Origin: Tragulus kanchil
Taxonomy: Eukaryota; Chordata; Mammalia; Artiodactyla; Tragulidae
DNA length: 64,000 nucleotides
Reading direction: 5' to 3'
NCBI GenBank assembly: GCA_022376925.1
Contig: JAIOJX010000030.1
Location: 172,045,298-172,109,297 of the forward strand
Shown here: positions 3,272-64,000 of the stretch, one piece after another
How the letters are laid out: every line of letters starts with the position of its first letter
How positions within the stretch are numbered: position 1 is the stretch's first letter
The notes under the pieces: model-generated
Database searches by the model: none
What the model was told of the DNA's origin: nothing
Seen by the model: only the letters and a program-made list of their open reading frames with translations
Translations under genes and position numbers: made by a program

Positions 3272-3611
3272 GTCCAGCCCAGCACCAGAGAGGACACTGC
3301 TTATGTAATATTCACTATGGGGGATTGTTTATTATTCTGGACTGTAGAATTTTTTTCTGGAGAAGCTGTTTGTAGACAGGATCCTCTAAAATTCGAGAAA
3401 TTGAAAGATGGTATGAGCAAAACATCCCTAAGAATGGCAGGGCTCATTGGGGTCTCCAGGTGCAGTAACCAGAAAAATGAATCCTCTTAAGGAGACTAAG
3501 GTCTCTACTTAGAACATACAATGTAATGCAAACAGGAAGACTGTAATAGCACCAATTATGGGGACGACTTGCTTAAGTAACTGGAGCAGGCTAGGATGAC
3601 ATATGCTCAGT

Positions 3612-3832
3612 GCTGTGCTGTACTGTGCTTAGTCAGTCAGATATGTCTGACTCTCTGTGACCCCATGGACTACAGCCCACCAGGTTCCTCTGTCCATGGA
3701 ATTCTCTAGGCAAAAATACCAGAGTGGGTTGTCATGTCCTCCTCCAGGGGATCTTCCCAATCCAGGGGTTTAACCCAGGTCTCTCATACTGTAGGCAGAT
3801 TCCTTACTGTCTGAGCCGCCAGGGAAGCCCAT
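3612..3832 (-). repeat. Bov-A2 / Bov-tA type SINE (copy 1)
   Basis: Typical ruminant tRNA-Glu SINE in reverse orientation: GTGACCCCATGGACTACAGC, GTCCATGGAATTCTCTAGGC, TCTTCCCAATCCAGGGG and CCGCCAGGGAAGCCC. The tRNA-derived head is at the high-coordinate end. An open frame starting MGCHVLLQG runs through it and is SINE sequence, not a gene. Confidence 0.9.
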
Positions 3833-4730
3833 ATGCTCAGTGGCTGTGCTATTTTGGTTCTGAAGGTTGGTGGATAATAGAAAAGGGAAAGAAGTTTGAC
3901 TTTTCACTGTGGCCTATGACATTTGAGCAAGAATGAACCATGAATGGGGGGATAAGTGATGCCTCCAAGTAGCCTGTCACGACGTTTCTCAGACCTCCAT
4001 CAAGGATAGTGCTGCATGCAGTTGGTGTATCAGAGACTAAAGGATTCTAACTCTGCCTACCTCCTCAGAACAGCTTGCCTACAACCACCCAGCTTAATAG
4101 AATCCAGGAAAGTAAAGCTGTCTATGTTAATGTGATTTTACAATCTAAGAAATTCCTCTTATCCAGGAAGATAAAAGTTATAAATATATATACTTTTAAG
4201 GTTTGTTTTAGGAACTTCCTGAAAATCCATCCATATGCATAATATATCACCCATCAAAAAAATAAATTTCCATCAGGGTAAATAGCTCATTTTCAGGACC
4301 AATTATCACTCAACTGGGATAAATGCTCTCATCAAAGAAGAGTTTACACAAGAAAACTTGCTTCAGAACCCTCCTCGCTGAATCCAATACGTCCAGCCCA
4401 GCACCAGAGAGGACACTGCTTATGTAATATTCACTATGGGGGATTGTTTATTATTCTGGACTGTAGAATTTTTTTCTGGAGAAGCTGTTTGTAGACAGGA
4501 TCCTCTAAAATTCGAGAAATTGAAAGATGGTATGAGCAAAACATCCCTAAGAATGGCAGGGCTCATTGGGGTCTCCAGGTGCAGTAACCAGAAAAATGAA
4601 TCCTCTTAAGGAGACTAAGGTCTCTACTTAGAACATACAATGTAATGCAAACAGGAAGACTGTAATAGCACCAATTATGGGGACGACTTGCTTAAGTAAC
4701 TGGAGCAGGCTAGGATGACATATGCTCAGT

Positions 4731-4951
4731 GCTGTGCTGTACTGTGCTTAGTCAGTCAGATATGTCTGACTCTCTGTGACCCCATGGACTACAGCCCACC
4801 AGGTTCCTCTGTCCATGGAATTCTCTAGGCAAAAATACCAGAGTGGGTTGTCATGTCCTCCTCCAGGGGATCTTCCCAATCCAGGGGTTTAACCCAGGTC
4901 TCTCATACTGTAGGCAGATTCCTTACTGTCTGAGCCGCCAGGGAAGCCCAT
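4731..4951 (-). repeat. Bov-A2 / Bov-tA type SINE (copy 2, from the duplication)
   Basis: Exact repeat of the SINE at 3612-3832, displaced by 1119 bp as part of the tandem duplication. It is not an independent insertion. Confidence 0.92.
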
Positions 4952-5150
4952 ATGCTCAGTGGCTGTGCTATTTTGGTTCTGAAGGTTGGTGGATAATAGA
5001 AAAGGGAAAGAAGTTTGACTTTTCACTGTGGCCTATGACATTTGAGCAAGAATGAACCATGAATGGGGGGATAAGTGATGCCTCCAAGTAGCCTGTCACG
5101 ACGTTTCTCAGACCTCCATCAAGGATAGTGCTGCATGCAGTTGGTGTATC

Positions 5151-7380
5151 AGAGACTAAAGGATTCTAACTCTGCCTACCTCCTCAGAACAGCTTGCCTA
5201 CAACCACCCAGCTTAATAGAATCCAGGAAAGTAAAGCTGTCTATGTTAATGTGATTTTACAATCTAAGAAATTCCTCTTATCCAGGAAGATAAAAGTTAT
5301 AAATATATATACTTTTAAGGTTTGTTTTAGGAACTTCCTGAAAATCCATCCATATGCATAATATATCACCCATCAAAAAAATAAATTTCCATCAGGGTAA
5401 ATAGCTCATTTTCAGGACCAATTATCACTCAACTGGGATAAATGCTCTCATCAAAGAAGAGTTTACACAAGAAAACTTGCTTCAGAACCCTCCTCGCTGA
5501 ATCCAATACAAAACTATGATAGTATAGACTTTCCTCAATTTAGATCAAACCTCCTCACTGAAAGAAGTGCCTTAATCCAGATCCCCAGATCATAAAAGTA
5601 TATACCCTTTACCTGAGACTCTACCAAGATGGCAGCCCATTTACTGCAGTAAACTACAAACTCAACTTGGCATTATCAACAGGCAACTTTGGTAGCAACG
5701 CCAGGTGGTTGGCAGTCAACAGCTTGCAAATTCCATGCTATTTACTATGATGTCTACTGTTCCATGACTTTTTATAAAGACCACAGAAGGTCAGACCTAG
5801 GTATATACCTAAGAGTGCTATTTCTAGTTCATAGGGCAACTTTACCTTAACTGTTTAAAGAACTGCCAATCTCTTCTCTTTCTCTGCATTTCTACCTTGT
5901 CACTTAGAGAAATGGTGCAATGAAAGTAAAATGCTCACGGTGGTGCAGGATAAACTAGGACAATGCTAGAGGTTAACTGGAGTTAAGCTTGTTACGCTGT
6001 CGGTTACTCTTCTGTTCATCTTCAATTTTGACTCCTCGCTTGAGAGTGATTATGTCTGCTTATTATTAATTTAGGGTTGTTAATTCAGGGTTCTTCCCTA
6101 GGCTTTTCTCGGTATGTGATTAGAACACTTATCAGACTGATTAGCTGTATTAGATACTAAAGATGCTTAAGAAAACCTGATACAAATCTTATCTGTGTAC
6201 TATGTTAACTCTCTAAGATAGGTTTAAGGATATATTTACAGCATGGGGAATACAGGTAACATTTTAAATAATTAGAGACTAAAGGATTCTAACTCTGCCT
6301 ACCTCCTCAGAACAGCTTGCAAAAGCTTAATAGAATCCAGGAAAGTAAAGCTGTCTATGTTAATGTGATTTTACAATCTAAGAAATTCCTCTTATCCAGG
6401 AAGATAAAAGTTATAAATATATATACTTTTAAGGTTTGTTTTAGGAACTTCCTGAAAATCCATCCATATGCATAATATATCACCCATCAAAAAAATAAAT
6501 TTCCATCAGGGTAAATAGCTCATTTTCAGGACCAATTATCACTCAACTGGGATAAATGCTCTCATCAAAGAAGAGTTTACACAAGAAAACTTGCTTCAGA
6601 ACCCTCCTCGCTGAATCCAATACAAAACTATGATAGTATAGACTTTCCTCAATTTAGATCAAACCTCCTCACTGAAAGAAGTGCCTTAATCCAGATCCCC
6701 AGATCATAAAAGTATATACCCTTTACCTGAGACTCTACCAAGATGGCAGCCCATTTACTGCAGTAAACTACAAACTCAACTTGGCATTATCAACAGGCAA
6801 CTTTGGTAGCAACGCCAGGTGGTTGGCAGTCAACAGCTTGCAAATTCCATGCTATTTACTATGATGTCTACTGTTCCATGACTTTTTATAAAGACCACAG
6901 AAGGTCAGACCTAGGTATATACCTAAGAGTGCTATTTCTAGTTCATAGGGCAACTTTACCTTAACTGTTTAAAGAACTGCCAATCTCTTCTCTTTCTCTG
7001 CATTTCTACCTTGTCACTTAGAGAAATGGTGCAATGAAAGTAAAATGCTCACGGTGGTGCAGGATAAACTAGGACAATGCTAGAGGTTAACTGGAGTTAA
7101 GCTTGTTACGCTGTCGGTTACTCTTCTGTTCATCTTCAATTTTGACTCCTCGCTTGAGAGTGATTATGTCTGCTTATTATTAATTTAGGGTTGTTAATTC
7201 AGGGTTCTTCCCTAGGCTTTTCTCGGTATGTGATTAGAACACTTATCAGACTGATTAGCTGTATTAGATACTAAAGATGCTTAAGAAAACCTGATACAAA
7301 TCTTATCTGTGTACTATGTTAACTCTCTAAGATAGGTTTAAGGATATATTTACAGCATGGGGAATACAGGTAACATTTTA
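5151..7380 (+). repeat. Tandem direct duplication, about 1.11 kb (junction 6267-6274)
   Basis: Positions 5151-6266 recur at 6274-7380. The offset is 1123 at the start and 1114 after a replacement near 6321, where copy 2 reads CTTGCAAAAGC and copy 1 has CTTGCCTACAACCACCCAGC. Seven bases (6267-6273) separate the copies. Because 5151-5509 is also inside the previous duplication, that 359-bp stretch occurs three times (from 4032, 5151 and 6274). Confidence 0.95.
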
Positions 7381-7514
7381 TAATAACTGTAATTGGAAAG
7401 CAACCTTTTAAAACTCTATGAAAATATTTAATTAAAATGTAAAATGTAACAGTGATAGAGGTATACTGAAATTTTGTAAAAATTAAAAGGAAAAAGAAAA
7501 GAAAAGAATAATGA

Positions 7515-9437: not shown

Positions 9438-9882
9438 GAGATTCAATTAGCTGTTACTGCATGGGATAAAGGCATATTATTGCCTGATCTGATTTTGAAA
9501 AGAAAAGCCAAAAAATATAGTTCATCTTGCAAAATTTCCTGATTCTTAAAATATTAACAAAAAATTAAGCTTTTAAGCACTCCTGCTGTTTGTACCCAGT
9601 TTGGGATCTGTAGCCTCAGGTTGGCTGGCAATTTTTGTACATGTCCTGTGAAAAAATACCACAGGTTCAGAGATGGTGACAAATGGCAATAACTATTGGC
9701 TCTCTGGTCTCAGGGTAAATGCCAGCTTGTCAGAGAGGCCATCCTTGCCCTGGTTCACAGAACTAGGACCTGGGCCAAACTATGGCTATACACCAGAGCC
9801 CCACGATCCTAAATCCTTTGACTCTTCCTCTAATGTGACGTTAAAACCTAGAGAGGCGCCTGCCACCATTGCTATGTATCTT

Positions 9883-10203
9883 TTTTTTTTTTAAAGATTT
9901 ATTTATTTATTTATGGGGGTGGAGGGGAGGGAGGGGAGCAGGCAGGCTACTTCCATTGGTCTTTCATTTCTCTATTTTCATCCATCTTTGTTCTTTGGCC
10001 TGTGTGGACCTCCCATCGCAGCGGCCTCTGTTGCTGCAGAGCACTGGCTCTGGGCGCATGCGCTCCAGAGCTCCAGTTCGGTAATTGGACACATCGGTCC
10101 AGCCGCTCAGCGGCACGTGCGGTCTTCCCAGGTCAGGGATCGAACCGGCGCCCCTTGCACTGGAAGGCAGTGTCCTTACCCACTGGACCACCAGAGAAGC
10201 CCT
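9883..10203 (-). repeat. CHR-like tRNA-Glu SINE with extended 3' tail
   Basis: Reverse-oriented SINE whose head (ACTGGACCACCAGAGAAGCCC) is at the high end. The body includes GGCGCATGCGCTCCAGAGCT and CATCTTTGTTCTTTGGCC. The 3' part extends into a GGAGGGAGGGGAGCAGGCAGG stretch and (ATTT)n. It is flanked by a 12-bp target-site duplication GCTATGTATCTT (9871-9882 and 10204-10215), which shows that the tail belongs to the element. Confidence 0.88.
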
Positions 10204-10972
10204 GCTATGTATCTTGATGCAAAGACTATGATGATAATTAGACTATAGAAGAAAAAAAACCCAAAAACTAGAGAGGCCGTCGGAGGATGGAACCGACTTC
10301 GGTGGTGTGATTATGAACTCACTGTCACTAACACAAAATTAGCCATTCATGGCTCCACTGGATCCCTCCAGAATAGCTATCCCACCCCGTGCTCTCGAAT
10401 GGCCACAGGCAGGTTTCTAAAATAATAATAAAAAACAATTGGAACAAAATTAAAAGCAATTCTTTTATCCCTTTTCGTTCTTTTTTCCCTGACTGGCTCT
10501 ATCGTTCAGAGACCAGAAGTGAAACTTTCTGAGATTCAATTAGCTGTTACTGCATGGGATAAAGGCATATTATTGCCTGATCTGATTTTGAAAAGAAAAG
10601 CCAAAAAATATAGTTCATCTTGCAAAATTTCCTGATTCTTAAAATATTAACAAAAAATTAAGCTTTTAAGCACTCCTGCTGTTTGTACCCAGTTTGGGAT
10701 CTGTAGCCTCAGGTTGGCTGGCAATTTTTGTACATGTCCTGTGAAAAAATACCACAGGTTCAGAGATGGTGACAAATGGCAATAACTATTGGCTCTCTGG
10801 TCTCAGGGTAAATGCCAGCTTGTCAGAGAGGCCATCCTTGCCCTGGTTCACAGAACTAGGACCTGGGCCAAACTATGGCTATACACCAGAGCCCCACGAT
10901 CCTAAATCCTTTGACTCTTCCTCTAATGTGACGTTAAAACCTAGAGAGGCGCCTGCCACCATTGCTATGTAT

Positions 10973-11293
10973 CTTTTTTTTTAAAGATTTATTTATTTAT
11001 TTATGGGGGTGGAGGGGAGGGAGGGGAGCAGGCAGGCTACTTCCATTGGTCTTTCATTTCTCTATTTTCATCCATCTTTGTTCTTTGGCCTGTGTGGACC
11101 TCCCATCGCAGCGGCCTCTGTTGCTGCAGAGCACTGGCTCTGGGCGCATGCGCTCCAGAGCTCCAGTTCGGTAATTGGACACATCGGTCCAGCCGCTCAG
11201 CGGCACGTGCGGTCTTCCCAGGTCAGGGATCGAACCGGCGCCCCTTGCACTGGAAGGCAGTGTCCTTACCCACTGGACCACCAGAGAAGCCCT
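10973..11293 (-). repeat. CHR-like SINE (duplicate of 9883-10203)
   Basis: Second rendering of the same SINE within the tandem duplication, with a shorter T-run at its tail. Confidence 0.88.
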
Positions 11294-11989
11294 GCTATGT
11301 ATCTTGATGCAAAGACTATGATGATAATTAGACTATAGAAGAAAAAAAACCCAAAAACTAGAGAGGCCGTCGGAGGATGGAACCGACTTCGGTGGTGTGA
11401 TTATGAACTCACTGTCACTAACACAAAATTAGCCATTCATGGCTCCACTGGATCCCTCCAGAATAGCTATCCCACCCCGTGCTCTCGAATGGCCACAGGC
11501 AGGTTTCTAAAATAATAATAAAAAAAAACAATTGGAACAAAATTAAAAGCAATTCTTTTATCCCTTTTCGTTCTTTTTTTCCCCTGACTGGCTCTATCGT
11601 TCAGAGACCAGAAGTGCCTATCTGTACAAGGTGAACCAGCTTATAGCCTGTCTGGTGAGCCATGCTCTGAGTGGATCCCTGAACTGTATGGAATTGCTGA
11701 CTGTGGTAGACGTCTGGGTACATTTTCTCCTGCATTCAGGCAACAGGCACCTGGCATTCTAAATCAAAAATGACACCCCCACCCCTAAGGAATTTACACC
11801 ATCATTCAACTGTTGGTCCATTTATCTACTCATCTATTTAATAAAGAACAAGTCATTTCTACATGCTAAGCATCACACTAAGTGCTAGGCGATGAAGAAA
11901 TACAGCAGAGCAAGAAAAACTGACATTTTCAATAGTTCCTGATGATGTGATAAACTAAGGGTATTAAATTATTATTACTGTTGCTGTTG

Positions 11990-12185
11990 TAGCTAACATT
12001 TGTTAAATATTTACTATGTGCCAGGCACTGTCTTAAGTTTATTACATATATTACTTCGTTTAATTCTAGCAATAACATTATTAAATTGGTACTACTGTAA
12101 TCCTTCTTTACAGCTAGAAAGTGGTGGAGCTAAGACTCGGATTCATGTAGTCAGTTGCAAAGCCTATAGCCCTAGTTACTGATAA
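11990..12185 (+). repeat. MIR SINE
   Basis: Matches the MIR core order: TTTACTATGTGCCAGGCACT, CTTAAGTTTATTACATA, CTTTACAGCTAGAAAGTGG and AAGACTCGGATTCA. An open frame starting MLNIYYVPG lies within it and has no protein meaning. Repeated at 13109-13304 by the duplication. Confidence 0.85.
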
Positions 12186-13108
12186 CAAATCTGTACATTA
12201 TAAAATATGAGCCACTGATTGTGATGAACAATGAGGTGATTCCATAGAAGCAGCCTTTAAACTGAAGCTGAAGAAGTACTAGATTTTGACAACTTACACA
12301 TTTTTCTCTTTGTCAGCATTACTTTGATTATGGCTATCCATTACCCCTATCTCTTGCGAACCGGCGCCTTGCACTGGAAGGCAGTGTCCTTACCCACTGG
12401 ACCACCAGAGAAGCCCTGCTATGTATCTTGATGCAAAGACTATGATGATAATTAGACTATAGAAGAAAAACCCAAACTAGAGAGGCCGTCGGAGGATGGA
12501 ACCGACTTCGGTGGTGTGATTATGAACTCACTGTCACTAACACAAAATTAGCCATTCATGGCTCCACTGGATCCCTCCAGAATAGCTATCCCACCCCGTG
12601 CTCTCGAATGGCCACAGGCAGGTTTCTAAAATAATAATAAAAAAAAACAATTGGAACAAAATTAAAAGCAATTCTTTTATCCCTTTTCGTTCTTTTTTTC
12701 CCCTGACTGGCTCTATCGTTCAGAGACCAGAAGTGCCTATCTGTACAAGGTGAACCAGCTTATAGCCTGTCTGGTGAGCCATGCTCTGAGTGGATCCCTG
12801 AACTGTATGGAATTGCTGACTGTGGTAGACGTCTGGGTACATTTTCTCCTGCATTCAGGCAACAGGCACCTGGCATTCTAAATCAAAAATGACACCCCCA
12901 CCCCTAAGGAATTTACACCATCATTCAACTGTTGGTCCATTTATCTACTCATCTATTTAATAAAGAACAAGTCATTTCTACATGCTAAGCATCACACTAA
13001 GTGCTAGGCGATGAAGAAATACAGCAGAGCAAGAAAAACTGACATTTTCAATAGTTCCTGATGATGTGATAAACTAAGGGTATTAAATTATTATTACTGT
13101 TGCTGTTG

Positions 13109-13304
13109 TAGCTAACATTTGTTAAATATTTACTATGTGCCAGGCACTGTCTTAAGTTTATTACATATATTACTTCGTTTAATTCTAGCAATAACATTAT
13201 TAAATTGGTACTACTGTAATCCTTCTTTACAGCTAGAAAGTGGTGGAGCTAAGACTCGGATTCATGTAGTCAGTTGCAAAGCCTATAGCCCTAGTTACTG
13301 ATAA
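13109..13304 (+). repeat. MIR SINE (duplicate copy)
   Basis: The same MIR as at 11990-12185, carried by the 1.12-kb duplication. Confidence 0.87.
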
Positions 13305-13476
13305 CAAATCTGTACATTATAAAATATGAGCCACTGATTGTGATGAACAATGAGGTGATTCCATAGAAGCAGCCTTTAAACTGAAGCTGAAGAAGTACTA
13401 GATTTTGACAACTTACACATTTTTCTCTTTGTCAGCATTACTTTGATTATGGCTATCCATTACCCCCTATCTCTTG

Positions 13477-13940
13477 GAATACTCTATAAATTATGAGCAT
13501 GATTAGATTTCTAAAACATTTTTACTGTTGTAATTATGAAACAATAGAGTGATTAGTAGTTTTATAGGCAGCATAAGTAAGTATTGATTTGGGGAGAGAT
13601 AATTTGATTAAACACTGATTGCTGCAATTAACCGTACTTTTTCTCTTTCAATGCCAGTGAAAGGCAAAATTCTAACCAGGGTGGAAGAGTCAACATTTAA
13701 CAAAATTACACCTTTAAAAATTAATTTTTAATCACCTCAGTTTAATGAAATTTTTAAAATTCTGCTTATTAAGTGTAGGTAACATTTTATTTCCCCCAGC
13801 TAGGCTGTATTTAAAACAGAACTTTTTTTTTTAAGTTTTTGATTGCTGTAGTGAATTAGATTGTAAGTAGAAAGTATAACAATTAAGTCTCCTTCATTTA
13901 TTGATAAGGGAACAATCTGGAGAGCTCTATAAATGGCTTC
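13477..13940. other. Unique AT-rich intron sequence
   Basis: No repeat family, exon or regulatory motif was recognised. Confidence 0.5.
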
Positions 13941-15240: not shown

Positions 15241-15455
15241 TGTACATGTTGCGTTATGACCCAGGGAGCTCAAACCCAGTGTTTTGTGGTGATCTAGAGG
15301 GTGGGACGGACTGGGAGGTGGAGGCAGGCTCCAGAAGGAGAGGATGTACGCATGCCTGTGGCTGATTCATGCTGATGTATGGCAGAAACCAACACAATAT
15401 TGTACAGCCATCATCCTCTAATTGAAAATAATGCATTTAAAATGGAAATAAGTAA
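15241..15455 (+). repeat. L1 3' end fragment (ruminant-type 3' UTR)
   Basis: The sequence GTGGCTGATTCATGCTGATG, GGCAGAAACCAACACAATAT and ATCATCCTCTAATTGAAAAT is the recurrent 3' terminus of artiodactyl L1. It is followed by an A/T-rich tail. Most of it is duplicated at 16351-16545. Confidence 0.75.
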
Positions 15456-17438
15456 ATAAAATAAGCCCTGTCAATGGAGCTTATCAATTAGAGCCCTGAT
15501 CCTATCCTGGGAACTCCAAGTGCGGGGACATGCCCCCTTGTTTCTGCCACTGTCTCTATCCTTCCTGATACCCTGCAGGTTAGCAATGGATACTTGTTCC
15601 ATTTTCCCCTCCCCTGTTACTCTGCCAGGGATGACATTTTCTGGAAACTCTGCATAGAACTACGCACACCTGAGGCAATAAAGCAGGGCTTCTTTAGGCA
15701 AAGGTGGCAGATGGCAGAGTGAACAGCCTTGCTCTTAATGATCTCCTCCTGATGGATTCTTCTTGGTGTAGAAACGTTCTAACAGCAAACCCTGTGGTCA
15801 TCTGTTAGTCTGAGAAGAAGTGGGGCCTAGAGCTAAGGCTCCAGCAGTGAGAGTTCAAGTGGCACTGTGTAACAGCCAGTGCACTCCTAGCCATCTAAAT
15901 TCCAGAGGATCTGATACAGAAAGGCTAGAGGTCTCTAACCCTAGGATTATGAGACTCTCAAACTCTCACCTCCTATAGCTAAGAAACTTACTCGCAACTA
16001 CTGACCATAGAGAAAGCTCTGCCCACTGCGGCTTGAAAGAGTACCCCGGAGTCTTCATAAATGAGAAGCATATTTGTTAACTTAAAACACTTTATTTCAT
16101 TGACTAGGAGAACATAAACCTACCAAACTAAGTTTGCCCAAAGTCTACTCTCACCAAACTTTGAGCTGAATCAGAATACTTAGAGCAAAAGTATTGAGTG
16201 GGATGATGCTGGGTGGATAGGATTCCCACCATGGAACAGACGAGCAGCTGTGGCCTGGGTGTCCAGGTGAGAGGGTGGCATGCCCTCTGGGCACTGAGTT
16301 TACTTCTTTACTCTTTTCTCTATAATTCCAATTTGATCTGACAGTATCTTAGGGAGCTCAAACCCAGTGTTTTGTGGTGATCTAGAGGGTGGGACGGACT
16401 GGGAGGTGGAGGCAGGCTCCAGAAGGAGAGGATGTACGCATGCCTGTGGCTGATTCATGCTGATGTATGGCAGAAACCAACACAATATTGTACAGCCATC
16501 ATCCTCTAATTGAAAATAATGCATTTAAAATGGAAATAAGTAAATAAAATAAGCCCTGTCAATGGAGCTTATCAATTAGAGCCCTGATCCTATCCTGGGA
16601 ACTCCAAGTGCGGGGACATGCCCCCTTGTTTCTGCCACTGTCTCTATCCTTCCTGATACCCTGCAGGTTAGCAATGGATACTTGTTCCATTTTCCCCTCC
16701 CCTGTTACTCTGCCAGGGATGACATTTTCTGGAAACTCTGCATAGAACTACGCACACCTGAGGCAATAAAGCAGGGCTTCTTTAGGCAAAGGTGGCAGAT
16801 GGCAGAGTGAACAGCCTTGCTCTTAATGATCTCCTCCTGATGGATTCTTCTTGGTGTAGAAACGTTCTAACAGCAAACCCTGTGGTCATCTGTTAGTCTG
16901 AGAAGAAGTGGGGCCTAGAGCTAAGGCTCCAGCAGTGAGAGTTCAAGTGGCACTGTGTAACAGCCAGTGCACTCCTAGCCATCTAAATTCCAGAGGATCT
17001 GATACAGAAAGGCTAGAGGTCTCTAACCCTAGGATTATGAGACTCTCAAACTCTCACCTCCTATAGCTAAGAAACTTACTCGCAACTACTGACCATAGAG
17101 AAAGCTCTGCCCACTGCGGCTTGAAAGAGTACCCCGGAGTCTTCATAAATGAGAAGCATATTTGTTAACTTAAAACACTTTATTTCATTGACTAGGAGAA
17201 CATAAACCTACCAAACTAAGTTTGCCCAAAGTCTACTCTCACCAAACTTTGAGCTGAATCAGAATACTTAGAGCAAAAGTATTGAGTGGGATGATGCTGG
17301 GTGGATAGGATTCCCACCATGGAACAGACGAGCAGCTGTGGCCTGGGTGTCCAGGTGAGAGGGTGGCATGCCCTCTGGGCACTGAGTTTACTTCTTTACT
17401 CTTTTCTCTATAATTCCAATTTGATCTGACAGTATCTT
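15263..17438 (+). repeat. Tandem direct duplication, 2 x 1088 bp (junction 16350/16351)
   Basis: Positions 15263-16350 recur at 16351-17438 with no difference seen. The unit begins AGGGAGCTCAAACCC, and the sequence after copy 2 begins AGGGAGCCCCC, leaving 7 bp of microhomology (AGGGAGC) at the breakpoint. The L1 3' fragment is included and truncated at the junction. Confidence 0.97.
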
Positions 17439-18244
17439 AGGGAGCCCCCAAACATATCACCAGGTTAATCTGTTTCCAAGGGCAGTTATCTCAGTGGTCA
17501 CAGTCTGAATTAACCCAGCCTTCCAGGTGTTTAAAATTGGTCCTGCTGCTGACCCAGCCATTCATACCTTTAAAGCATATGCTAGAGCAAGCATCAATGA
17601 CTATGTTCGGCCGAGGATCTGTGATCCTGCCTGCTTTTCCTACCATAACCTCTCTCAGCATGACAAGAACCAAAACTGTTCCTATTTAGTGCTAAGCTGA
17701 GGATATATCCTTGATCTAGCTTCCATAAACAAAAATAACAATCCCAAGTATATGGGTTGGCCCAACTTTCCAGGCAAATGAGGCAGAATCATTTAAATTG
17801 GGTGTTATTTTGAGTAGTTGGACTGGAATGGTGAAATCTTCTATGAGATTTTCAAGGTCTTAGGTTCTATGCTATTACATTGTCTCTCTATTTCTAATGT
17901 ATTTCAAGGTCACATAAAGGTTAACAACTTACATTCTTTTATAGCTATAACCTGGAACTCTTTTGTGAGCTTCAGACTTATATTCACTTCATTTTGGCTC
18001 TCATGGATTTGGGAAACTCAATCGGAATTCTCAATTTTCATCTCCTGCTCTGAGCAGTCTCCCTAAACTATTGTTAGAGCATCCACAGGGCTATTCATAC
18101 TATGAAGGTGGGATTCACTTTTGATTATTTTTTCCTTCAATACAAGCATTATTCTTCCTTTAAATCCAGTACTAAATCCACCATTAATTATTTTATTCTT
18201 CCTGTAAGATAGGTATGTGATTATAGCTGTATATACATATACAT
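17439..18244. other. Unique intron sequence
   Basis: No recognised repeat or coding exon. An 82-codon frame at 17818-18066 has no recognisable domain and no splice context. Confidence 0.5.
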
Positions 18245-18911: not shown

Positions 18912-19190
18912 GGGGCTTCCCTGGTGGTCCAGTGGGTAAAGAGTTTGCCTTGCACTGCAAGGAACACTGGTTTGATCCCTGTCCCAGGAGGATCCCATGT
19001 GGCACAGAGTGGCTGGACCAGTGTGTCCAATTGCAAGCTGGTGCTCTGGAGCACATATGCCCAGGGCCAGTACTCTGCTACAGGAGAGGCCACTGCAATC
19101 AGAGGCCCACACAGGCCGAGGAGTAAAGATGGATGAAAATAACTAAATGAAAGACCAATAAAAGAGGCAAAAATTAAAAAAAAAAAAAAT
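18912..19190 (+). repeat. CHR-like tRNA-Glu SINE
   Basis: Forward copy: GGGGCTTCCCTGGTGGTCCA head, then TGGCTGGACCAGTGTGTCC, GGAGAGGCCACTGCAATC, AGATGGATGAAAATAA, and a tail ACCAATAAAAGAGGC with A13. It is cut by the duplication, whose unit starts at 19143, so only its tail recurs at 20307. Confidence 0.9.
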
Positions 19191-19559
19191 ATCATGGCCT
19201 ACAAGAGACTGCTATGGCTCTTACCCACTGCCTTAACCTCTCCTTTCATGCCTCCTCCCCATTCTCTCCCATAGTTACACCATCGCTTTGTCCTCCTCGG
19301 ACTTCCACCATGGATCACTCATTCTCCCATCACCTGCTCCTCACCCAGGGGACCCCTCTCCCCCTCCATCATTCTTTCTCCTGCCAAGTCTGTTACCACC
19401 CTTTGGAATTTGCATACACATATCTCTTGATTACCATGCAATGTTATTCAAAATCTTTAATTATGTACAAAACAGACTTATGCTTCTTTTGATTTCCATT
19501 ATGTATCCACTGCTTCCCACAACACTTATCACATGACAGGTACTTTATTTTTCTTTTTT

Positions 19560-19828
19560 AAATTTTGGCCTCTTTTATTGTTCTTTTTATAGATTTATTT
19601 TCATCAATCTTTATTCTTTGGCCTGTGTGTGCCTCCCATCACAGTGGCCTCTCTCGTTGCAGAGCACAGGCTCTGGGCGCATGCGCTCCAGAGTGCTAGC
19701 TCGTAATTGGACACACCAGTCCAGCTGCTCTGCAGCACGTGGGATCTTCCCAGATCAGGGATTGAACAGGCACTCCTTATTTCACTGCAAGGTGGACTCT
19801 TTACCCATTAGATCACTAGGGAAGTCCT
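19560..19828 (-). repeat. CHR-like SINE
   Basis: Reverse copy with tail TTTTGGCCTCTTTTATTG at the low end, body GGGCGCATGCGCTCCAGAG, and head ACTAGGGAAGTCC at the high end. Confidence 0.88.
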
Positions 19829-20722
19829 ACAGGTACTTTAAAAAACAAATGAAGACTTGTTGGATGGCTAATAAAACACAATTCGTATTAAAATACAAAC
19901 CAAAGACCAATGCTCCTGTCAGCTCATTGGGATGGTGGACCTTGAGAGAGACAACTGGGCAGACACAAGCAGAGCCAGGTGGAACAATGTGCGAAGGATG
20001 TAAATGGCCCTTTGTGGCTTCACCAACCTCCCACCCTATGTACAATCCTCTCTTCTCTTCTGAAAATCATACCCCATGCTGTACTGCCCCTAAAGATACC
20101 TATTCTGTGTTCTACTCTCAAAAAGTCCTTTCCTCAACCATTTCCAAATGTGTACAGCAATAAAGGCTAATGGCATCATTTCCAGATCTAGAAGAGACAC
20201 TGGAAGGACTTCACTTGGACAGAGCCTATGATGATTCATTTTTTAGGCTATGGGGTGCCTTGATATTTGGTTAAACACTGTCAAGGGTATGCTAGTGAGG
20301 GTGTGCCTAAATGAAAGACCAATAAAAGAGGCAAAAATTAAAAAAAAAAAAAATATCATGGCCTACAAGAGACTGCTATGGCTCTTACCCACTGCCTTAA
20401 CCTCTCCTTTCATGCCTCCTCCCATTCTCTCCCATAGTTACACCATCGCTTTGTCCTCCTCGGACTTCCACCATGGATCACTCATTCTCCCATCACCTGC
20501 TCCTCACCCAGGGGACCCCTCTCCCCCTCCATCATTCTTTCTCCTGCCAAGTCTGTTACCACCCTTTGGAATTTGCATACACATATCTCTTGATTACCAT
20601 GCAATGTTATTCAAAATCTTTAATTATGTACAAAACAGACTTATGCTTCTTTTGATTTCCATTATGTATCCACTGCTTCCCACAACACTTATCACATGAC
20701 AGGTACTTTATTTTTCTTTTTT

Positions 20723-28870: not shown

Positions 28871-28879
28871 ACCCAATGT

Positions 28880-45360: not shown

Positions 45361-47490
45361 AAGCGGCGAGGAAAAGATAAACATTTGTCTTTGAGGCTAC
45401 TAGAACTTGAAAAATACAGCCTCACAATAAAACTGTGTACAAGTTCCTATGTCCTTGTCTTCTGAAGTAAAACGCTGATTGAAGAGTTAATGTTTGGGAG
45501 ATATGAAAATGTAGAAACAAAGAATATCTGTTGGCTGGAGCACTGGCAATAATTTAGACGAAATCTTATACACAGCAGGATTACTGAACTCCCAGTTCCC
45601 CAAAAGATATAGACAAAGGCCTGACATACCTTCCTAAGTTGTCTTTACAAGAAACAGACCCCCTCCAGATGAAAACTGCTGACCAAAATAACATAGAGCC
45701 TTACTCGTTGAAACCAGAAGGTTGATGATACTTGAAATGTCACCATGATGCCAAATAGTCCAAGAATTGTCTACATTTCTATTCGGTGTTGGGAACAGAG
45801 GCTAAGTTTCAGCAACAATATCAAGAAAAACAGAACTGGCAAGTTCATTAACAGTAAGAAGAGGCTAACTTTATTTCCCCTACTGTGGCAGACATAACTG
45901 TGTGCCAAGTTTAGAGTCTCTGGTTACTCATCTACCACCTGGTCCTTCCTCCTCTCATTGAGATCTGTTTTTTTCTGGTAATGGCAGTTCCTGCAGAAGT
46001 GTAGACTTCTGGGCCTCTCCTAAGTCAATCCTCATTTATCTAAGCCAATCCAGCTTCCTCAGAAAACACAGATTTAGGAACAGGTATGGGCTACAATTCT
46101 ACATGATAAGATGTAAGAAAAAAGAGTTTATTACCTCCACGTATAAAATGATACAAATGAACTTATTTATAAAACAGATGTAAGTGTTGGACCAAAAAGA
46201 AGTCTGAGCACTGAAGAATTGATGTTTTCGAATTGTGGTGCTGGAGAAGACTCTTGAGAGTTCCTTGGACTGCAAGGAAACCAACAGTTCAATCCTAAAG
46301 GAGATCAACCCTGAATATTCACTGGAAGGACGGATGCTGAAGCTGAAGCTCCAATATTCTGGCCACCTGAAGTGAAGAGCCAATTCACTGGAAAAGACCT
46401 GGGTGGCTGGAAGAAGGGGACGACTTCTGTCCTTGGCCCCTTCTGAAAGCGGCGAGGAAAAGATAAACATTTGTCTTTGAGGCTACTAGAACTTGAAAAT
46501 ACAGCCTCACAATAAAACTGTGTACAAGTTCCTATGTCCTTGTCTTCTGAAGTAAAACGCTGATTGAAGAGTTAATGTTTGGGAGATATGAAAATGTAGA
46601 AACAAAGAATATCTGTTGGCTGGAGCACTGGCAATAATTTAGACGAAATCTTATACACAGCAGGATTACTGAACTCCCAGTTCCCCAAAAGATATAGACA
46701 AAGGCCTGACATACCTTCCTAAGTTGTCTTTACAAGAAACAGACCCCCTCCAGATGAAAACTGCTGACCAAAATAACATAGAGCCTTACTCGTTGAAACC
46801 AGAAGGTTGATGATACTTGAAATGTCACCATGATGCCAAATAGTCCAAGAATTGTCTACATTTCTATTCGGTGTTGGGAACAGAGGCTAAGTTTCAGCAA
46901 CAATATCAAGAAAAACAGAACTGGCAAGTTCATTAACAGTAAGAAGAGGCTAACTTTATTTCCCCTACTGTGGCAGACATAACTGTGTGCCAAGTTTAGA
47001 GTCTCTGGTTACTCATCTACCACCTGGTCCTTCCTCCTCTCATTGAGATCTGTTTTTTTCTGGTAATGGCAGTTCCTGCAGAAGTGTAGACTTCTGGGCC
47101 TCTCCTAAGTCAATCCTCATTTATCTAAGCCAATCCAGCTTCCTCAGAAAACACAGATTTAGGAACAGGTATGGGCTACAATTCTACATGATAAGATGTA
47201 AGAAAAAAGAGTTTATTACCTCCACGTATAAAATGATACAAATGAACTTATTTATAAAACAGATGTAAGTGTTGGACCAAAAAGAAGTCTGAGCACTGAA
47301 GAATTGATGTTTTCGAATTGTGGTGCTGGAGAAGACTCTTGAGAGTTCCTTGGACTGCAAGGAAACCAACAGTTCAATCCTAAAGGAGATCAACCCTGAA
47401 TATTCACTGGAAGGACGGATGCTGAAGCTGAAGCTCCAATATTCTGGCCACCTGAAGTGAAGAGCCAATTCACTGGAAAAGACCTGGGTG
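45361..47490 (+). repeat. Tandem direct duplication, about 1086 bp (junction 46406-46447)
   Basis: Positions 45361-46405 recur at 46447-47490. Copy 1 ends in 41 bases (46406-46446) that do not match what follows copy 2, where a BovB element continues normally. A homopolymer difference (GAAAAATAC versus GAAAATAC) was also seen. The junction interrupts a BovB 3' end. Confidence 0.95.
46225..46405 (+). repeat. BovB 3' region, truncated by the duplication junction
   Basis: GGTGCTGGAGAAGACTCTTG, GGACTGCAAGGAAACCAAC and CCAATATTCTGGCCACCTGA are BovB RT-distal sequence. It stops at GACCTGGGTG, where the full copy at 47310-47692 continues. Confidence 0.88.
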
Positions 47491-47692
47491 CTGGGAAAAA
47501 ACTGAGGGCAAGAAGAGAAGGGGGCAAAAGAGGATGAGATGGTAGGATGGCATCACTGACTCAATGGACATGAGTCTGAGAAAACTCATGGAGATACAGT
47601 GTTGGATAAAGAAGCCTGGTGTGCTGTAGTCCATGGGGTCCAACAGAGTCAGACATGACTTAGTGACTGAACAACAACATAAAACAGAAATC
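47310..47692 (+). repeat. BovB (RTE) 3' end
   Basis: The same start as the truncated copy, then GGATGAGATGGTAGGATGGC, GACTCAATGGACATGAGTCT, AAGCCTGGTGTGCTGTAGTC and CAACAGAGTCAGACATGACT with GACTGAACAACAAC. This is the complete terminal part of BovB. There is no intact reverse-transcriptase frame. Confidence 0.92.
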
Positions 47693-48566: not shown

Positions 48567-49437
48567 TGCCGACTTTAATATACCTGCTTCCTCAGAATAT
48601 ATGCTTTAGTTAATATACATGAGCAAACTATGAGGGAGGAAAAAAAGACATAGAAAAGGTAAGAAATTATGGATCTGATATTATCAATACAAATAATCCT
48701 ACTGTAATACAAAACTAAAAGAAAGAGAGGTTTGGGTTTTAGGCAGGAAACAAACCAAAGATATTTGCTAGTGTGAACTGGAAACCTACCAAAAAGCAGA
48801 TTTGAACAACTGGCCCTGTGTTTACGTTCTGTTTCTAAGGGATTCATAAATCATAATCTTCTATTGATTTCACATATTAATTCAGTTATTTGCATCAGAA
48901 AGACCTCTTGGAAGTACACATGCTCACACAGACTCTGCTTTTAAACTATGCATTACGCAAATAGATTTTGTTGACTATAAAGGCGCAAACTTAAAAATTT
49001 TTTGAGGTTAACGTCCTGATTAGTACTATGCACAATTAACTAAACTCTAATGCTTGGATGCATTGCAAATAATAAATACCCTCATAAAAACAGGAGAAAG
49101 TTATGTTACAGGAACTTTCAAAAAAATTCAGAGCATATTTGGTGACAGAAGTGCTAGATGCTGGGTCCAGAGGATGTAGGGATAGCAAGGTGGGTATCAC
49201 AGAACACTAGAAAGTGCTGCAGGTTCTAAAGATGCCACAGCTACCAGACAAGCCTTATGAGAATGCTACTGCAGTCCCTCCCACACTTTCAAAATAAATA
49301 AATAAAATAAATAAACGACTTATTGGTTTACTGGACAATTTTTTTCCTCTCATGGGTACACATCTCTTTCAATAAAATGAACATCAATGGTTTTATATAT
49401 ATAATATTTATATATATATATTAATATATATAATATT

Positions 49438-49477
<40 letters not shown>

Positions 49478-50550
49478 CAAATGTGCTTCATTGCTGTTTT
49501 TTTAAAACAGTAACCCCCATTCATACAGTCGGGGAGTAACAAACCATGGCAAGAAATAGCAGTAAAAAGAAAGTCAAAAGTTCTGGATTTAGACCTTTGC
49601 TACTACTGTGCCTCTGTCTGGAGGTGAGGGTCAGTGAGAACTGAATGAGTCAGTAACTTGTGCAAAGAATGATTCCTGCCGAACTTTAATTATACCTGCT
49701 TCCTCAGAATATATGCTTTAGTTAATATACATGAGCAAACTATGAGGGAGGAAAAAAAGACATAGAAAAGGTAAGAAATTATGGATCTGATATTATCAAT
49801 ACAAATAATCCTACTGTAATACAAAACTAAAAGAAAGAGAGGTTTGGGTTTTAGGCAGGAAACAAACCAAAGATATTTGCTAGTGTGAACTGGAAACCTA
49901 CCAAAAAGCAGATTTGAACAACTGGCCCTGTGTTTACGTTCTGTTTCTAAGGGATTCATAAATCATAATCTTCTATTGATTTCACATATTAATTCAGTTA
50001 TTTGCATCAGAAAGACCTCTTGGAAGTACACATGCTCACACAGACTCTGCTTTTAAACTATGCATTACGCAAATAGATTTTGTTGACTATAAAGGCGCAA
50101 ACTTAAAAATTTTTTGAGGTTAACGTCCTGATTAGTACTATGCACAATTAACTAAACTCTAATGCTTGGATGCATTGCAAATAATAAATACCCTCATAAA
50201 AACAGGAGAAAGTTATGTTACAGGAACTTTCAAAAAAATTCAGAGCATATTTGGTGACAGAAGTGCTAGATGCTGGGTCCAGAGGATGTAGGGATAGCAA
50301 GGTGGGTATCACAGAACACTAGAAAGTGCTGCAGGTTCTAAAGATGCCACAGCTACCAGACAAGCCTTATGAGAATGCTACTGCAGTCCCTCCCACACTT
50401 TCAAAATAAATAAATAAAATAAATAAACGACTTATTGGTTTACTGGAAAATTTTTTTTCCTCTCATGGGTACACATCTCTTTCAATAAAATGAACATCAA
50501 TGGTTTTATATATATAATATTTATATATATATATTAATATATATAATATT

Positions 50551-50590
<40 letters not shown>

Positions 50591-50785
50591 CAAATGTGCT
50601 TCATTGCTGTTTTTTTAAAACAGTAACCCCCATTCATACAGTCGGGGAGTAACAAACCATGGCAAGAAATAGCAGTAAAAAGAAAGTCAAAAGTTCTGGA
50701 TTTAGACCTTTGCTACTACTGTGCCTCTGTCTGGAGGTGAGGGTCAGTGAGAACTGAATGAGTCAGTAACTTGTGCAAAGAATGA
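48567..50785 (+). repeat. Tandem direct duplication, about 1110 bp (junction 49673-49677)
   Basis: Positions 48567-49672 recur at 49677-50785. Differences are homopolymer changes at the start of copy 2 (GACTTTAATATACC versus GAACTTTAATTATACC) and GGACAATTTTTTTCC versus GGAAAATTTTTTTTCC. The unit includes an interrupted TA microsatellite. Confidence 0.96.
49393..49474 (+). repeat. TA-rich microsatellite
   Basis: (TA)n with TAATATT interruptions and a pure run of about 16 units. Present again at about 50506-50587 through the duplication. Confidence 0.93.
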
Positions 50786-57159: not shown

Positions 57160-58328
57160 ATACTATTTAAGGACATTTAGCCAGGATGCTCAAGTAAGAG
57201 ACCTTGAGTTCACTTTCTCCCATGAGCACACAAAAATGACAGCTATTTATAGAACAATGGTCAGTAAGCAAAATCTGAAGATTAACAGGAAAGATTTTCC
57301 AGGAATAAAGATATAAAGAAGGAATCCCAATGAGATGGGTAGTGGAGCAGAGACAGAGCTGAGTCTAGACCCACACCCACTGCAAGGCGGCCTACAAGTG
57401 GGAGGATAGTCGCAATAGCAGGCAAGGTCTGAGCCCCACTCATGCTCCCCAGCCCAGGGGCTTTGCACCAGGAGGACAAGCTGCCAGAATATACGGCTTT
57501 GAAGTCCAAAGGAACTTGTGTGTGGGAGAGCCAGAGGGCTGTAGGGAACAGAGACTCTCCTCTCAATGGGTGTACACAAAATCTCACACACTTCATGACC
57601 TGGTACAGACAGAGTAATCTGAAAAGAGCCTGGGGCAGAACCACTGAGTGACTTTGGAAAGCTTCCTGGAGAGGCAGGAGATAAATGCAGCTCCCCTGGT
57701 AGATGCTAGCAGGAGCCATTTTGGGGAGATCACTTTACCACAAGGACACTGCTGCTGCACAAGCCATTTGAGAATGGTCTCTAGCCTGTCAGTGCTAGAG
57801 CATTACTTGTCCAGCAGCTAGTAGGTACCAGTTCAGGAATTCCTTGCCCTAAGCAACCAACAATGTGTGGACCCGGCCCCAACCAACCAGTGGGCCAACG
57901 AACCCAAGAATCCAAGCCCAAGAACCCCAGAGCTCACAGCTAGCCACCCTGGGGCTATTGATGGCCTGTGCCAGGCCTGGGTCTCTGCGGCCATAGTCCG
58001 TTGCACTGGGATTGCGCCTCACCCACCAGCAGGCCAGCAGCCTCCTCATGAAGCTGTTCCTGACAGCCAACCAGGGCAGGCCAGCCCTGAACACAGCATT
58101 CCAATGGTAGTCAGCTCTGTTACAACAGAAGGGCCCCCAGTCTACACAGGGGCACCTCTAAAGCTCTGATGACTAGAAAGCAGAGAGTTCCTGGATCCCA
58201 GACATCCTACAAGAAATAACCTTGCCTTACACCAAAAGGACCTAGAAAAATAATCACAATCAAAATCCGAAGTTAGAAGAAGTAAAGAAATAGTAAAGAT
58301 CAGCAAGTACATAAATGAGATATGTATA

Positions 58329-58615
58329 TTTTTTTAAATTTTTGGCCTCTTTTATTGGTTTTCCATTCAATTTTTCTTTATCTATATTTTCCATTTATCT
58401 ACATTCTTTGGCTGGTGTGGGCCTCCCATTGCAGTGGCCTGTCTCAGTGTAGAGCACTGGCTCTGGGCACATGTGCTCCAGAGTGCTGGCACACAATTGG
58501 ACACATCAGTCCAGCTGCTGCACAGCACATGGGACCTTCCCAGGCCAGGGAGCAAACCAGAACCCCTTGCACTGCAAGGCAGACTCTTTACCCACTGGAC
58601 CACCAGGGAAGCCCT
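58329..58615 (-). repeat. CHR-like SINE inside L1
   Basis: Reverse copy: tail TTTTGGCCTCTTTTATTGG, body CTCTGGGCACATGTGCTCCA, head ACCACCAGGGAAGCCC. Flanking GAGATATGTATAT and GAGATACATATTT look like a diverged target duplication. Frames of 80-143 codons across it are SINE/L1 sequence. Confidence 0.9.
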
Positions 58616-59427
58616 GAGATACATATTTAAAAAGCCAATGAGACTAAGAGCTGGATTTTTTAAAAGATGCAACTGATAAATCCTTGGGCATGCACACAGG
58701 ATAAAAAGAGATGGGGTCCAATTAAATAAAATCAGAAATGAAAGAGAACTTAAAACAGACATCACAGAAATATGAACATTATTAGATACTGTTGTAAGCA
58801 ACTGCAGTAACAATCAAAAGGGACAACCTAGAAGAAATGGACAAATTCCTAGAAATATACAATTATCCATGTATAAATCAAGAAGAAACAGAAAATATGA
58901 ACAGGCTTATCTCCAGAAATGAAAATGAACCAATCATTTAAAAAATATCCTCTGAAACAAAAATCCAGAACTGGACTACACAGGTGAGTTCTACCAAACA
59001 TTTAAAGGAGATTTAGCACCTAACCTTCTCAAACTTTGCCAAAACAATGAACAGGCAGAAATGCTTCTGAATTCATTGTATGAAGTATCACCTTGACAAC
59101 AATACCAGACAAAAACATCACACACAAAAAAAATTATAGGCCAATACCATTGATAGAGAGAAAGATCCTTAACAACAGGTTAGCAAACTGAATTCAACAA
59201 AAGTACATTCTAAGGATTATACACCACATTAACAAAGAAAAACATCTGTTACAACAGACCCTCTGGGATGACTAGAAAGCAGAGAGTTCCTGGATCCCAG
59301 ACATCCTACAAGAAATAACCTTGCCTTACACCAAAAGGACCTAGAAAATAATCACAATCAAAATCCGAAGTTAGAAGAAGTAAAGAAATAGTAAAGATCA
59401 GCAAGTACATAAATGAGATATGTATAT

Positions 59428-59712
59428 TTTTTTAAATTTTGGCCTCTTTTATTGGTTTTCCATTCAATTTTTCTTTATCTATATTTTCCATTTATCTACA
59501 TTCTTTGGCTGGTGTGGGCCTCCCATTGCAGTGGCCTGTCTCAGTGTAGAGCACTGGCTCTGGGCACATGTGCTCCAGAGTGCTGGCACACAATTGGACA
59601 CATCAGTCCAGCTGCTGCACAGCACATGGGACCTTCCCAGGCCAGGGAGCAAACCAGAACCCCTTGCACTGCAAGGCAGACTCTTTACCCACTGGACCAC
59701 CAGGGAAGCCCT
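59428..59712 (-). repeat. CHR-like SINE (duplicate copy)
   Basis: The SINE of 58329-58615, repeated by the tandem duplication. Confidence 0.92.
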
Positions 59713-61142
59713 GAGATACATATTTAAAAAGCCAATGAGACTAAGAGCTGGATTTTTTAAAAGATGCAACTGATAAATCCTTGGGCATGCACACAGGATA
59801 AAAAGAGATGGGGTCCAATTAAATAAAATCAGAAATGAAAGAGAACTTAAAACAGACATCACAGAAATATGAACATTATTAGATACTGTTGTAAGCAACT
59901 GCAGTAACAATCAAAAGGGACAACCTAGAAGAAATGGACAAATTCCTAGAAATATACAATTATCCATGTATAAATCAAGAAGAAACAGAAAATATGAACA
60001 GGCTTATCTCCAGAAATGAAAATGAACCAATCATTTAAAAAATATCCTCTGAAACAAAAATCCAGAACTGGACTACACAGGTGAGTTCTACCAAACATTT
60101 AAAGGAGATTTAGCACCTAACCTTCTCAAACTTTGCCAAAACAATGAACAGGCAGAAATGCTTCTGAATTCATTGTATGAAGTATCACCTTGACAACAAT
60201 ACCAGACAAAAACATCACACACAAAAAAAATTATAGGCCAATACCATTGATAGAGAGAAAGATCCTTAACAACAGGTTAGCAAACTGAATTCAACAAAAG
60301 TACATTCTAAGGATTATACACCACATTAACAAAAAGAAGAATAATAATCATCTGAAATCTCAATAGATGCAGAAAGAACATTTGACAAAACTCAACATCT
60401 TTTTATGATAAAAATGTTCAACACAGTTGGTACAGAGGGAATATACCTCAACATAATAGAGGCCATTTATGATAAACCCATGGCTAACATCATACTCAGT
60501 GCTGAAAAGCTGAAAGCATTTCCTACAAGATTAGGAACAAGACAAGGATGTGCACAATCATCTCTTTTATTAATATAGAATTAGAAATTCTAACCGTAAC
60601 AACCAGATTAAAACAATAATAAAAGTAAAAGGAATTAAAATTGGAGAGGAATAAGTAAAACTGTCATTGTTTTCAGATGGTACCATATATAGAAAATCCT
60701 AAAGATGCCATCAAAAACTAATGAACTAATAAACAAATTCTATAAAACCGCAGGATACTAAACTAGTGAAAAGAAACTTACTAAGTTAGTGTAAAGCTTC
60801 TATACACTAACAATGAGCTATGTGGAAGAAAAATTAAGAAATGGTTCCATTTACAGTTGCATCAAAAAGAATAAAATACATAGGAATAAATCTAACCAAG
60901 GAGGCAAATGAACCCACTAGGAAATCTGTGATACTGACGAAAAAATAGAAGATGACACAAACAAACGGAAAGATACACCATGGTACCATAATCATGGAGT
61001 GGAGAAACTAACATTGTGAAAGTCATCACACTCCCTAAGGCTATCTCTATAATCTGTGCAATCTCTATCAAAATAGAAATGATGTTTTTCACAACACTAG
61101 AAGAAATATTTCTAAAATTTGTATCAAAATAAAAAAGATCCC

Positions 61143-61655: not shown

Positions 61656-62580
61656 AAAAAGGATCCCAAATAGCCCAAGCTATCTTGAAAAAGGAAGAAA
61701 ACACAGCTGGAGATATCACACTCTGAGTTCAAACGATACTTCAAAGCTACAGTAATTAAAATAGCATGGTACTGGCACAAAAACATACACATAGATCAAT
61801 GGAAAAAAATAAAGGGCTTGGACATAAACCCATGCTTATATAGGCAATTAATCTATAAGAAAGAAACAAAGAACATACAATGTGGAAAAAAATAATCTTT
61901 TCTATAAATGATGTTAAGAAAACTGGGCAGCTGCATGTAAAAGAATCAAACTGGAGTACTCTCTCACACCATACACAAAACTAAACTCAGATTAAACTCT
62001 TGAAAGTAGGACCTGAAATTATAAAAGTCCTAGAATACGATGTTGGCAATATGCTAACTCTGTGACATTGTTTAGTAACATTTTTTGGATATCTCTCTTC
62101 AGGCAAATGAAACAAATCCCAAAAATACACAAATGAGGCTACATCAAACTATAAACCTATTTTGCACATGAAGGAAAATATTTTTTAAAAAGGCCACCTA
62201 CTGAATGCAAGAAGATTTGCAAATAATATGTCTTATAAAGGGTTAACATTCAAAATAAAAACTCACACAACTCAACATGAAAGGCAAACAATCTGATTTA
62301 AAAATGAGTACATTTAATTATTTCAGGTCAGAGGACTTGAATAGACATTTTCCCATAAAGACAGATGGCCAACAATTCATGAAAAGATGTTCAGACTCAC
62401 TAATCATAAACATGATGAGATATCACCTCATAGCTATCAGAATGTTAATTATCAAAACACAATAAATGCTAAGTGTTGCCAAGAATGGACAGAAAAGGAA
62501 ATCCTAGTGTAAGGTTGGTAGGAATTTAAACTGACACATCTACAATGAAAAGCAATACGGAGGTTGCTCAAAAATTATAC

Positions 62581-62905
62581 ATGGGGTTGTGCGTTCTTCC
62601 ATGGTAGGCCAGTAGTTGAGAATCCACCTAGCAATGTGTGGAGCACTGGTTTGATCCCTGGTCTGGGAGGACTCCACATGCAGTGGGACAATGAAACTGA
62701 CAAGCCACAGCTTCTAAGCCTGCACTCCAGGGCCTGTGCCAAAACTACTGAAGACCACACAACCTGGAGCCCATGCTTCACAACATGAGATGCCACAATA
62801 ATTATGATGCACCACAACTACATACCAGCCTCTACTTACCACAACTAGAGAAAGCCTGCGTGCAGCAACAGAGAGTTGGCATAGTCAATAAATAAATAAA
62901 AACAT
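62581..62905 (+). repeat. CHR-1-like tRNA-Glu SINE inside L1
   Basis: Forward copy: CCAGTAGTTGAGAATCCACC, GGTTTGATCCCTGGTCTGGG, GGAGCCCATGCTTCACAACA, CTAGAGAAAGCCTGCGTGCA, and (AATA)n tail. A short (CA)n follows. Confidence 0.85.
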
Positions 62906-63660
62906 GAACACACACACACGCACACACACAAAGAGGATTAGTATATGTTCAGCAATTCCACTTCTGGATACTCTTGAAGAAAACACTAGTTTGAAAAAAG
63001 AAAAGTATATATATATGACGCCCCCATGTTCACTGCAGTCTTTTTCCCTCTTTTTACAATAACCCAAATACAGTAGCAACCTGAGTATCCACTGATAGAT
63101 GAGAGAATAAAGAAGACGTGATATATACACACACACCATAGGCACAGACACACATGATGGAATATTATTTAGCCACGAATGAGAATGAAATCTTGCCATG
63201 TGCAACATCAAGGAATAAGTCAGACAGAGAAAGATAAATATCAGATGATATCCCTTATATGTGGAATCCAATAAATAATTGAACAAACTGCTAAACAGAA
63301 ATAGATTCACAGATACATATCATAAGCACATGGCTGCCGCAAGTGAAAGGATGAGGGGGTACGAGGTAAACAGGTGAGGGAGTTTAAGAGGTATGAGCTT
63401 CAGTTACAAAATAAATGCATTTTGGGGGTGAAATCTATAACATGCACACTATAGTCAATAACATTGTATCAACTTTGGATGGTGACAGATCATAGACACC
63501 TCATGAAAGGGCTATTCAGAATGTTAATTATTCAAAACACAATAAATGCTAAGTGTTGCCAAGAATGGACAGAAAAGGAAATCCTAGTGTAAGGTTGGTA
63601 GGAATTTAAACTGACACATCTACAATGAAAAGCAATACGGAGGTTGCTCAAAAATTATAC

Positions 63661-63985
63661 ATGGGGTTGTGCGTTCTTCCATGGTAGGCCAGTAGTTGAG
63701 AATCCACCTAGCAATGTGTGGAGCACTGGTTTGATCCCTGGTCTGGGAGGACTCCACATGCAGTGGGACAATGAAACTGACAAGCCACAGCTTCTAAGCC
63801 TGCACTCCAGGGCCTGTGCCAAAACTACTGAAGACCACACAACCTGGAGCCCATGCTTCACAACATGAGATGCCACAATAATTATGATGCACCACAACTA
63901 CATACCAGCCTCTACTTACCACAACTAGAGAAAGCCTGCGTGCAGCAACAGAGAGTTGGCATAGTCAATAAATAAATAAAAACAT
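63661..63985 (+). repeat. CHR-1-like SINE (duplicate copy)
   Basis: The SINE of 62581-62905 displaced by 1080 bp. Confidence 0.92.
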
Positions 63986-64000
63986 GAACACACACACACG

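Follow-up and report, generated by a model that had tools for sequence, protein, structure and literature searches.

The tandem duplications of about 1.1 kb seen in a 64,000-nt stretch of contig JAIOJX010000030.1 from Tragulus kanchil (hereafter the window) are, with a probability of about 0.97, an assembly artefact of one kind or another, almost surely absent from the animal itself. As to how they arose, we consider it probable that consensus units having one fixed-length graph node in common, of the type used by wtdbg2/Redbean, were concatenated without being merged; from the sequence we infer that the second copy is absent from the reads, that the stitching of units failed, and which assembler was used. 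Biologically this is nothing new, and the matter is a practical one. Provided that the random sample described below is representative, false tandem sequence accounts for about a quarter of this chromosome-sized mammalian assembly, and long coding exons look broken or repeated. Gene counts, calls of frameshifts and gene loss, estimates of segmental duplications and repeats, and genome size would all be wrong if taken from this assembly.

Tandem pairs in the window

Comparison of the window with itself by BLAST recovered 15 tandem direct duplications, of which 14 are complete and one is cut by the window end; all are head-to-tail on the same strand, with 99.0-100% identity between copies and offsets of 1078-1164. 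These results agree with the count of 15 and the list of offsets in the first-pass annotation, as well as with its description of the copies as near-identical. The pairs are as follows:

3272..5509, + strand: pair 1, copies 3272-4390 and 4391-5509, 100% identity, offset 1119
5148..7386, + strand: pair 2, copies 5148-6271 and 6271-7386, 99.0%, offset 1123; a 362-b overlap with pair 1 gives a triple copy at offset 2242
9438..11616, + strand: pair 3, copies 9438-10521 and 10531-11616, 99.3%, offset 1093
11231..13479, + strand: pair 4, copies 11231-12360 and 12357-13479, 99.2%, offset 1126; 386-b overlap with pair 3
15263..17445, + strand: pair 5, copies 15263-16357 and 16351-17445, 100%, offset 1088
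19143..21471, + strand: pair 6, copies 19143-20308 and 20307-21471, 99.9%, offset 1164
24466..26657, + strand: pair 7, copies 24466-25566 and 25556-26657, 99.8%, offset 1090
26364..28570, + strand: pair 8, copies 26364-27446 and 27487-28570, with 40 unmatched b (a flap) between them, 99.7%, offset 1123; 294-b overlap with pair 7
28180..30471, + strand: pair 9, copies 28180-29325 and 29324-30471, 99.7%, offset 1144; 391-b overlap with pair 8
32161..34386, + strand: pair 10, copies 32161-33275 and 33276-34386, 99.2%, offset 1115
42214..44405, + strand: pair 11, copies 42214-43303 and 43319-44405, 99.2%, offset 1105
45360..47494, + strand: pair 12, copies 45360-46410 and 46446-47494, 99.8%, offset 1086
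48567..50785, + strand: pair 13, copies 48567-49672 and 49677-50785, 99.6%, offset 1110
58168..60333, + strand: pair 14, copies 58168-59236 and 59267-60333, 99.8%, offset 1099
62433..64000, + strand: pair 15, truncated where the window ends, copies 62433-62920 and 63511-64000, 99.6%, offset 1078

Where pairs are closely spaced they overlap by 294-391 b, and the overlapping part is present in a third copy at double the offset; four further self-BLAST matches, at offsets of 2213-2268, are such triple copies, found where successive duplications overlap. Beyond the pairs and these triples, the window holds no other same-strand matches up to 6 kb apart at 90% identity or more and an E value of at most 1e-20. 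When the 15 pairs were aligned over 15,967 letters, mismatches numbered 12 and indel events 34 (18 of them in homopolymers), and a chance origin of the pairs is out of the question.

No Pfam match was found in the 10 scanned open frames out of the 33 in the window with at least 110 aa, and the window gave no Rfam match at gathering scores. ARAGORN reported four tRNA-Trp-like matches (10124-10198, 11214-11288, 30688-30758 and 32058-32131), which are probably tRNA-derived repeats; the first two, 1090 b apart, duplicate one another as parts of pair 3.

Spread through the assembly and into coding exons

The assembly comprises 3,167,203,957 bases in 32 contigs; the 14 contigs with a length shown measure 73-297 Mb and are therefore chromosome-sized. 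With the first copy as query, the best 38 matches outside the window included 10 pairs on the same strand, spread over eight contigs and with steps of 1084-1166 b (40 of 7944 candidates were scored, and 12 weaker matches were left out of the pair count). The first-pass annotation had proposed a look beyond the window for the same offset peak. In 20 random 10-kb stretches on 11 contigs (the first 20 of 60 drawn from 14 contigs), the peak at 1.0-1.2 kb indeed recurs, duplications being present in 19 of the 20 stretches and on every one of the 11 contigs. The sample holds 53 junctions in 200 kb, 41 of which belong to complete pairs. Of the sampled letters, 25.8% belong to a second copy (20.3-30.9% by bootstrap over stretches), as do 24.9% of those in the window; subtraction of the second copies would reduce the assembly from 3.167 Gb to about 2.35 Gb (2.19-2.53). 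The pairs are not equally dense everywhere in the genome, stretch L021 being without any and L024 having only one cut pair. Ns are present in two stretches: L014 carries a 65-N run in both copies of a pair (6822-6886 and 7909-7973, 1087 b apart) and L016 a single N at 1674. None were found in the remaining 18 stretches, nor at the junctions seen.

Coding sequence is also affected. We searched for four families that sit in long coding exons, namely the APC, RAG1, BRCA1 and BRCA2 types, whose domains are expected to be single-copy. On contig C3, APC_basic gave three matches, the latter two of them partial, which follow one another after 1111 and 1116 b; the locus contains three pairs, at offsets of 1116-1118, 1114 and, for a cut one, 1110; on C26 there is a single APC_basic match, which we take to be APC2. 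RAG1 gave three overlapping matches and contains a copy of 1071 b (offset 1101); its frame is broken by a stop at the junction and by a frame change inside the second copy. BRCT_assoc (BRCA1 type) has two matches at a step of 1130 b, and a further pair is present there at 1088; the BRCA2 repeats gave 11 matches, including four equal-score pairs at offsets of 1163, 1120, 1126 and 1126. Each of the four families is hit at one locus at least, and the duplications fall in functional coding sequence regardless of reading frame. The 14 control genomes gave no match to the searched domains.

A real and recent genome-wide process, copying arbitrary DNA in tandem at a step of about 1.1 kb, coding exons included, would agree with the high regularity of the pattern and with its recurrence across the sampled contigs; about six nucleosome repeats amount to the same length. 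The copies at the APC, RAG1, BRCA1 and BRCA2-type loci, together with the broken RAG1 frame, make such a process nearly impossible, and normal life would not be expected of an animal whose RAG1- and BRCA1-type exons were like these. Older, diverged copies are also lacking, since at an offset of 1.0-1.2 kb and below 93% identity only pieces of repeats occur among the matches listed at the 90% level. The concentration of copy differences at the ends and the floor in junction spacing, both described below, further argue against it, and we regard its probability as vanishingly small.

Period, spacing and junctions

Over the 55 complete pairs from the window and the sample, the offset has a mean of 1110, an sd of 35 and a range of 1000-1189, this range being bounded by the definition of junctions by offsets of 950-1250. 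The offset histogram was made without such a limit: every same-strand match in the window and sample that reaches 150 b and 95% identity (79 in all) lies either at 1000-1199 b (68) or at 2100-2399 b (11). At the 90% identity level, two repeat matches appear in L018 (offsets 3403 and 4498) and one, at 38 b, in L022. The mean period is 86 above 1024, and the length is near-constant, not strictly constant. We considered whether the length might be set in read coordinates by the balance of read errors; this is unsupported, the period being uncorrelated with GC or homopolymer content (Spearman -0.01 and 0.04, respectively). The duplication length can deviate: in L036 (C26:1051138-1052901), downstream of the APC2-type match, a tandem pair with 99.6% identity has a period of 873. 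It sits in a 3.5-kb stretch of 78% GC and is the only kb-sized pair seen outside 1000-1189. Scattered periods are also observed in L022 (341-8289), where four chained pairs have periods of 1000, 1189, 1056 and 1121 and identities of 95-99.5%.

The junctions keep a distance from each other. With the copies subtracted, the smallest spacing is 693 b; none of the 42 spacings is below 690 b, where random placement would give 11.8, and the range of 690-890 b holds 12 of them, where random placement above a floor would give 5.6 (P 0.007), these spacings coming partly from 10-kb stretches, in which long ones are hidden and the mean is lowered. Six of 48 spacings, those with a cut left copy, had been dropped before this test. 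The 17 overlaps between successive pairs all measure 391 b or less.

The absence of a common sequence at the breakpoints, as claimed in the first-pass annotation, extends to the 55 junctions of window and sample, in which no column exceeds the random 95% level (0.20 bit of information in the top column, against 0.23 bit). Duplication driven by a transposon or by recombination was considered and rejected: the common breakpoint sequence, target site or homology expected of it was not found, the overlap of copies at the junction ranging from -107 to 20 b. Unmatched flaps reaching 12 b or more separate the copies in 22 cases, and 11 of them match neighbouring sequence above the random 95% level where about two are expected (eight match the sequence after copy 2 and five the sequence before copy 1); for the remaining 11, neither neighbouring sequence matched above chance. 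The 55 aligned pairs contain 86 mismatches and 155 indel events (57 in homopolymers) in 60,271 letters, and these differences crowd towards the ends of the copies, 131 of the 241 lying within 60 columns of one end or the other, against 26 expected. This pattern, together with the flaps, is the look of consensus ends of separate units, unlike that of ageing duplicates.

Uncollapsed haplotypes, i.e. two alleles placed in tandem as in heterotype false duplication, might account for the few pairs with 12-16 mismatches (in L018, in L022 and at the BRCA1-type locus), as alleles could differ in this way. Such an origin would predict allele-like divergence and variable length; the observed length is near-constant, a fixed length being unexpected for alleles. 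Moreover, the copies are identical in seven of the 55 pairs, indels outnumber mismatches (155 vs 86), and triple copies at double offset do not suit two alleles. We therefore judge this explanation very improbable.

Candidate mechanism and comparison with known false duplications

The first-pass annotation had preferred a reading in which overlaps of about 1.1 kb were left unmerged. This reading gains support from the presence of the duplications on all 11 sampled contigs, from their share of about a quarter of the sampled letters and from the coding exons hit; the near-constant period, the spacing floor and the location of over half of the differences in the outer 60 columns back it further. 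Gap filling as such, named there as one possible source of the overlaps, is unlikely in view of the density of junctions, which is too high at 53 in 200 kb, and a node common to consecutive consensus units, as in the design of wtdbg2/Redbean, fits better.

The assembler wtdbg2/Redbean works with a fuzzy Bruijn graph. By default, it uses --node-len 1024, corresponding to four bins of 256 b, and --node-ovl 256, and its consensus step, wtpoa-cns, stitches units that overlap by one node. In the mechanism that we propose, a long-read assembler would tile the genome with graph nodes, all given the same nominal length, and would derive a separate consensus for each unit between nodes; neighbouring units would then have one whole node in common, of about 1.02 kb nominally and about 1.11 kb in the final sequence. 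Wherever the overlap of two unit ends escaped recognition, the units would be written consecutively and the common node would appear twice in tandem. Two successive failed joints whose nodes overlap, nominally by at most one 256-b bin, would leave up to about 390 b in three copies. This layout predicts a period of about 1024, spacings of at least 768 b and small triple overlaps. The period observed here, 1110 +/- 35, is about 86 above 1024, and there is the one outlier of 873. For the spacing, the predicted floor of 768 b (1024-256) compares with the observed minimum of 693; five of the 42 spacings are below 768 b and need blurred node ends. The overlaps (17 of 17 at most 391 b) correspond to the nominal 256 b with a surplus similar to the one seen for the node length. 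Blurring of the node ends by about 90-130 b in the consensus may be the common cause, as the same excess would explain the period (1024+86), the floor and the overlaps, a fit made after the fact.

Another program may have produced the same class of artefact, if a scaffolder, a gap filler or an assembler other than wtdbg2 joined end to end pieces that overlapped by about 1.1 kb; the near-constant overlaps and the unmatched flaps require only that overlapping units were left unmerged. Against this, a density of 53 junctions per 200 kb would imply contigs only a few kb long, ordered without gaps through whole chromosomes, and both the floor near 768 b and the successive overlaps of at most 391 b are what tiling by nodes with bins predicts. 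We hold such an origin to be unlikely and prefer the wtdbg2/Redbean-type node. That wtdbg2 takes a node-len parameter is evident from two papers (PMC11087460, PMC11931762), which give it values of 1536, 2048, 2304 and 2560, each a multiple of 256. The signature is easy to compute, consisting of a peak of same-strand self-matches at 1.0-1.2 kb, a floor of about 770 b and doubles at 2.2 kb, and could serve to screen other assemblies made likewise.

In the literature searched (titles, beginnings of abstracts and passages), no published description of this artefact was found; however, related phenomena are on record. The duplicated overlapping contigs of PMC2864568, as described in its available passages, are similar in that adjacent pieces overlap at their ends and both are kept. 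They differ in lying on separate contigs, in being ascribed to haplotype differences and in their median identity of 98.1% (for falsely duplicated contigs), whereas the copies described here follow each other with no gap in the sequence, are near-constant in length and are mostly above 99% identity; cases within contigs are called rare in the same passages. The homotype and heterotype false duplications of PMC9516828 likewise inflate assemblies, and the homotype ones are ascribed to read errors in the part of that paper available. There, false duplications amount to at most 15.9% of an assembly, are heterotype in most assemblies and are most often separated by gaps, whereas here they take up about 26% of the sampled letters, have a single period and lack Ns at the junctions seen. 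Two pairs stand apart from most others in how their copies differ: L018 (3824-6034) shows 12 mismatches and one gap, and L037 (C17:37899158-37901369) 16 mismatches and three gaps. In these mismatch-rich pairs, two consensus units perhaps took different haplotypes.
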